Assembly (NCBI GenBank): GCA_018969485.1
Contig: JAGWYG010000005.1
Span: 1-64,000, forward strand
Source: Chloroflexota bacterium
Lineage (GTDB): Bacteria; Chloroflexota; Chloroflexia; Chloroflexales; Roseiflexaceae
Direction: 5' to 3'
Length of the DNA: 64,000 nt
Within the stretch, counting starts at the first letter, position 1, and every line of letters begins with the position of its first letter. Both the position numbers and the translations under genes were made by a program. A model generated the notes under the pieces. That model saw only the letters and a list, made by a program, of their open reading frames with translations. It made no database searches and was not told the DNA's origin. This document shows, one piece after another, positions 32,977-33,070 of the stretch.

Positions 32977-33070
32977 CGCTCATCTTCCAGTCGCCGCTGC
33001 CGGATTTGGCACCATCATCGTGGTTGCCGAGGCTTCGTCGGGCCGGTCCCTCCACCTCTCTGGATAAGCG
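32977..33070 (-). ncRNA. SAM-I (S-box) riboswitch aptamer
   Basis: Read on the minus strand, the leader shows the S-box consensus in order: P1 5' strand CGCTTATC, AGAGAGGTGGAGGGA, GGCCC, GAAGCCTCGGCAACC, GGTGCCAAATCC and the P1 3' strand GATGAGCG, giving an 8-bp P1 (33063-33070 with 32977-32984). Distances and the invariant core (GGAGGGA, GCAACC, GTGCCAA, the GAT of P1) agree with the SAM-I family, which binds S-adenosylmethionine and turns off downstream genes. A strong hairpin follows. It heads the cysteine-desulfurase-like/oxygenase unit. Confidence 0.93.

Follow-up and report, generated by a model that had tools for sequence, protein, structure and literature searches.

On the minus strand of the window, the whole 64-kb stretch of DNA analysed here, a SAM-I riboswitch precedes a gene for a SufS-like class-V enzyme and, behind it, a gene for a 2-oxoglutarate/Fe(II) oxygenase. 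The source genome (G000) is a 4.02-Mb MAG that is 95.6% complete. The features of the locus, in the order of transcription, are as follows.

33099..33127 (-): promoter, with -35 TTGACA at 33127-33122, a 17-nt spacer and -10 TATATA at 33104-33099
32977..33070 (-): SAM-I riboswitch aptamer (RF00162, 80.3 bits, E 2.6e-17)
33070-33063 paired with 32984-32977 (-): P1 of 8 bp, CGCTTATC with GATGAGCG, from sequence
32929..32963 (-): expression-platform hairpin of 14-15 bp, terminator-like without a U-tract, from sequence, covariation and fold
31461..32897 (-): P0001, SufS-like class-V PLP enzyme (cysteine desulfurase-like; PF00266, 268 bits)
30392..31408 (-): P0002, 2-oxoglutarate/Fe(II) oxygenase of 338 aa (PF14226 + PF03171)

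A divergent gene for a DAO-family FAD oxidoreductase (33196-34626, plus strand) faces the riboswitch promoter and keeps its position in G001, a genome of the same genus, with 88% identity. Farther along the window are two AT-rich islands, at 38730-41000 (GC 0.39-0.43) and 42448-44000 (GC 0.34), in a contig of about 0.69 GC. The former carries a 529-aa ORF without a Pfam match and the latter a Polysacc_synt (polysaccharide-biosynthesis) gene; both look horizontally acquired.

The riboswitch and its leader

SAM-I riboswitches act through a P1 helix that is stabilised by the ligand and leads to transcription termination, and their usual targets are methionine and cysteine genes. A covariance-model scan of the 64-kb window gave a single Rfam match over threshold, the complete S-box core that the earlier note had recognised on this strand, which aligns at full length (model positions 1-108 of 108) and scores 80.3 bits (cut-off 44.4). 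The 8-bp P1 was likewise as the note described it. So was the 14-bp hairpin after the aptamer (14-15 bp, 32963-32929, minus strand; arms CGACGCCCCTTCCAT / ATGGAAGGGGCGTCG), although the missing T-run had gone unmentioned. A promoter is present too, but the 29 nt said to separate TTGACA from the aptamer fit the -10 element instead, the end of TATATA lying 28 nt from the aptamer. TTGACA, exactly 17 nt and a -10 element are common to 9 of 10 riboswitch-desulfurase leaders. A generic promoter scanner missed the P0001 promoter because it requires T at -10 position 6.

The earlier note had tied its reading to covariation among homologous leaders, and such covariation was found. The aptamers of 12 Chloroflexales leaders align, with 4 of 26 predicted pairs changed on both sides and most pairs invariant and hence uninformative. 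The downstream hairpin stands at the same position in nine aligned leaders, where 91.9% of cells pair; 15 cells are changed on both sides, for a covariation score of 0.377, compared with 2-4 cells and a score of 0.06-0.12 (maximum 0.117) when the partners are slid. The tenth leader, from G061, was excluded from this count owing to an insertion in the hairpin. T-runs follow the hairpin in G006, G052 and G061, which favours transcription termination as the original mode of control of the Chloroflexales riboswitch-desulfurase leaders. No U-tract lies 3' of the hairpin in G000, where GTCACGGC is found instead, and no T-run follows it in G001 either, which may leave termination weakened or absent in this genus. 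The missing U-tract concerns the mode of control, not the membership of the aptamer in RF00162. In most leaders GAGCGGGC can pair with GCCCCTTC as a candidate antiterminator; this pairing is not supported, as it shows no covariation and, in the truncated transcript, is less stable than P1 by 3.5 kcal/mol.

G000 holds two RF00162 matches, the second of which heads metY-metX. The metY gene scores 683 bits with TIGR01326 (cut-off 495), and the gene after it, for an alpha/beta hydrolase, is read as MetX by position. The locus thus resembles other SAM-I riboswitches with a terminator platform in its full consensus core, P1, upstream promoter and terminator-like downstream hairpin, and in having a second genomic copy at metY-metX, whereas it differs in its SufS-like desulfurase target and in the U-tract missing in the genus.

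A SufS-like gene and its sulfur context

The folds of P0001 and P0002 are certain from their sequences. P0001, which likely starts at ATG 32861 (466 aa; aligned with the start in G001), consists of an Aminotran_5 domain with the loop Cys (FCAQP), as the earlier note had seen, and its best solved relatives are SufS-type cysteine desulfurases (E about 1e-50). Lys241 (PLP), Cys385 (loop), His136 (stacking) and Asp211 are kept in 93 of 93 family members, and 13 reference SufS sequences of related genomes have the same four residues. P0001 thus shares with SufS and other group II cysteine desulfurases (PF00266, TIGR01979) the fold family and these four residues. In the tree, however, the SufS references form a clade separate from the P0001 family, which is linked to SAM riboswitches in Chloroflexales and to DsrE genes in Firmicutes. 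P0001 is predicted to be a group II cysteine desulfurase; because it falls under the curated SufS cut-off (TIGR01979, 265.6 versus 475.1 bits) and lies outside any suf operon, we term it SufS-like and not SufS, and because of that score its desulfurase activity rests on homology.

Orthologs of P0001, 47-79% identical, were found in 13 of 82 Chloroflexales genomes, and in 10 of the 13 an RF00162 match lies directly upstream on the same strand. G070 (and its counterpart, locus L106) keeps the gene without the riboswitch, while the contigs of G067 and G080 start at the desulfurase gene or just ahead of it, so that the upstream region is cut off. In the tree, the orthologs from Chloroflexales group as a single clade (support 1.0) with G070 nested inside it, so that one gain and one loss make the simplest history. 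The Chloroflexus-, Roseiflexus- and Herpetosiphon-like genomes of the set yielded no orthologs, and studies of these genera would therefore have missed the pair. Among the best 80 loci of the genome collection, none of the 78 outside Chloroflexales has a riboswitch upstream of the desulfurase-family gene; with the scan covering these best loci, a rarer riboswitch-linked case outside Chloroflexales is possible. The arrangement is also absent in G082, G083, G094 and G097. Riboswitch control as a trait of the whole desulfurase family was rejected, as only Clostridium tetanomorphum among the 78 outside loci had SAM-I matches, and these lie elsewhere, 2.5 kb beyond the desulfurase-family gene, as two tandem SAM-I riboswitches (L143 8714-8996, plus strand) before a 318-aa ORF.

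Across the best 80 loci, which span many phyla, the commonest neighbour family is DsrE_2 (PF13686), encoded directly downstream of the desulfurase-family gene in 17 Firmicutes loci (for example L097 6306-6782, plus 16 others). This gene context suggests that the wider setting of the family is sulfur transfer involving a DsrE-type sulfur carrier. Genes for a second MetY (MetY2) and for rhodanese lie downstream of the desulfurase in G052 and G080, with a gap of 0.4 kb between desulfurase and MetY2 in G052, and in G052 and G073 the riboswitch has a sulfite reductase gene beside it. G000, G001 and G006 gave no sulfite reductase match, so cysteine would be a natural source of sulfur in these genomes. 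That the desulfurase is retained because this enzyme is lacking was considered and dropped, since 7 of the 13 ortholog carriers have a sulfite reductase and the two sets do not separate. Apart from the desulfurase, a SAM-I riboswitch lies directly upstream of a sulfite reductase gene in G035 (L201 5066-6999), and coordinates suggest the same arrangement in G026 and G038.

The SAM-I riboswitch before this SufS-like gene is genuine and the two have stayed together in Chloroflexales; we therefore regard P0001 as an S-box-regulated sulfur-handling gene. To this extent the sulfur-handling pathway proposed in the earlier note stands, although the unit that includes the oxygenase is limited to one genus. 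Nor does the product, which the note left unnamed, have to be anything unusual, methionine being the most parsimonious target.

The oxygenase and its neighbours

P0002 follows P0001 after 52 bp in G000 (52-58 bp across G000 and G001). It comprises DIOX_N and 2OG-FeII_Oxy domains and belongs to an ortholog group of 17 members that are 63-95% identical to it and in which the HxD...H triad and RxS motif (H201, D203, H257, R268 and S270) are invariant. These motifs and both Pfam domains place it in the superfamily of isopenicillin N synthase (IPNS) and ACC oxidase. Its description as IPNS-like holds at that level only: P0002 has its own ortholog group, and IPNS is a distant relative (58 bits), whereas the best solved relatives are 9ovh (206 bits) and 6jyv (174 bits).

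The oxygenase occurs in 22 of 158 genomes of the class, and it lies directly behind the desulfurase only in this genus (G000 and G001). The riboswitch-desulfurase-oxygenase triad, which the earlier note proposed to look for in other Chloroflexota, was thus rejected as a conserved unit; in Ca. Chloroploca asiatica (G052), an N-terminal oxygenase fragment lies after MetY2, further down the desulfurase locus. Genes adjoining the oxygenase elsewhere encode MetY2 (G079, G004, G075 and, for the fragment, G052), a protein 82-92% identical within its own group and about 70-75% identical to canonical MetY. In G000, MetY2 was not found, canonical MetY (71%) being the only match. In G075 (L185 878-1844), a SAM-I riboswitch is followed by a 151-aa ORF without a family and then by the oxygenase, with MetY2 divergent.

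A further association is with methylthio-alkane reductase (Mar) genes. In G083, the oxygenase directly follows NifB-, NifH-, NifD- and NifK-like genes. The D protein scores 475 bits to 9fmg (next best 134) and the K protein 419 bits to its partner chain (next best 59), 9FMG being MarDKH (PMC12552129). This marB-x-marH-marD-marK-like operon (L189 5808-12018), from the same bacterial class, is followed at once by the oxygenase gene, and a Tn3-family transposase lies close by. In G091, the oxygenase lies about 1.1 kb from Mar fragments, and these two are the only Mar-positive genomes among the 158. Other orthologs adjoin mannitol dehydrogenase, LigB or aldo-keto reductase genes. What ties the oxygenase to MarBHDK methionine salvage is the place of its orthologs, next to Mar genes in two genomes and next to MetY in four; on the other side, no Mar genes were found in G000, and P0002, whose activity is putative, is unrelated to the nitrogenase-like enzymes. 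From its gene context, P0002 appears to be a methionine/organosulfur-linked gene that is part of the desulfurase operon in this genus only.

A proposed sulfur supply under SAM control

The features read from sequence, namely the aptamer, its promoter, the hairpin with its covariation, the gene order, the conserved pair and the catalytic residues, suggest a scheme in which low SAM switches on a supply of cysteine sulfur for homocysteine and methionine synthesis through the SAM-I-controlled desulfurase. We give this reading a probability of about 60%. When SAM is plentiful, its binding to the riboswitch would turn off P0001 and the probably cotranscribed P0002 behind it, by termination. When SAM and methionine run low, P1 would not be held by the ligand and transcription would read through. 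P0001 would then take sulfur from cysteine, and the likeliest use of this sulfur would be delivery to O-acetylhomoserine sulfhydrylase (MetY) for homocysteine and methionine synthesis; the operon of MetY itself is under the second SAM-I riboswitch of the genome. The riboswitch at metY-metX, the MetY2, rhodanese, sulfite reductase and DsrE_2 neighbours and the precedent of MetJ over csd (see below) argue for this reading. Against it stand the lack of a U-tract, with termination perhaps weak or lost here, the lack of a supported antiterminator, the score of P0001 under the SufS cut-off, the presence of the gene without the switch in G070 and the position of MetY2, which is not adjacent to the desulfurase in G000 and is 0.4 kb away from it in G052.

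The first of these points is also what would make the riboswitch a decaying relic in this genus, with the aptamer kept, no termination without a U-tract and both genes near-constitutive. No T-run follows the hairpin in either genome, as this explanation would have it, yet aptamer, P1, promoter spacing and the perfect 14-bp hairpin are intact in both G000 and G001, compensatory changes occur across the clade and terminators with weak U-tracts can still work, which leaves a relic decidedly improbable. The desulfurase might instead serve Fe-S assembly or the thiolation of cofactors or tRNA in place of a lost SufS, with SAM sensed because radical-SAM enzymes and methylthiolation use SAM and clusters. 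SufBD (PF01458) was found in neither G000 nor G001, where gaps in the MAGs may account for missing SUF genes, and P0001, with SufS proteins as its best solved relatives, is the sole SufS-type match in G000 at E <= 1e-30. However, other class-V genes exist in G000, and G002 and G052 carry a suf operon with canonical SufS as well as the riboswitch-linked gene (sufBD being on a different contig), so that in these two genomes the P0001 ortholog is not a SufS replacement. Moreover, SAM-I riboswitches ordinarily govern methionine and cysteine genes, and the neighbours encode MetY, sulfite reductase and sulfur carriers rather than suf products. We consider a role in Fe-S assembly or thiolation unlikely.

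Another explanation starts from the oxygenase: the operon would salvage methylated sulfur, with P0002 cleaving a methylthio compound oxidatively to methanethiol, MetY converting this to methionine and the desulfurase covering the remaining need for sulfur. The proximity of the oxygenase to MetY2 in four genomes (in G052 as the fragment), the SAM-I riboswitch over it in G075, its place in G083 directly after marBHDK-like genes and the Mar fragments close to it in G091 are consistent with such salvage, and the aerobic enzyme that converts 2-(methylthio)ethanol to methanethiol was unassigned in 2018 (PMC5893883). The orthologs beside mannitol dehydrogenase, LigB and aldo-keto reductase genes do not fit, however, G000 has neither Mar nor MetY2, and G083 and G091 belong to one family, so the Mar linkage may be a single event. 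We judge methylthio salvage to be quite unlikely as the purpose of the operon. That P0002 does with O2 what methylthio-alkane reductase does without it, freeing methanethiol for MetY as the so far unassigned aerobic step of the DHAP-methanethiol shunt and sharing the SAM switch with the desulfurase, is a very doubtful proposition; if true, two sulfur sources for methionine would be placed under one switch.

For a methionine-pathway regulator over a cysteine desulfurase gene, one precedent was found in the literature: MetJ controls csd in Vibrionales (PMC4239095). The regulator there is a protein repressor of Gammaproteobacteria, whereas in Chloroflexales it is an RNA switch; the two are of independent origin. 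The text of Sun et al. 2013 mentions Chloroflexi genes under SAM riboswitches without their names (PMC3766115), and a 2021 review of bacterial cysteine desulfurases has neither "riboswitch" nor "homocysteine" in its text (PMC8300815). Our literature searches found nothing that links a SAM riboswitch to a cysteine desulfurase, and in our rating the RNA class is known and its target here is new, no description of this target having been found.

With P0001, a predicted cysteine desulfurase joins the genes under SAM-I control, in a link that is kept across Chloroflexales. The aerobic enzyme that releases methanethiol has a candidate in the oxygenase behind it in this genus. SAM control may extend as far back as the mobilisation of cysteine sulfur, the step ahead of homocysteine, and the conserved pair suggests that these cells tune the sulfur drawn from cysteine to their methionine and SAM level.
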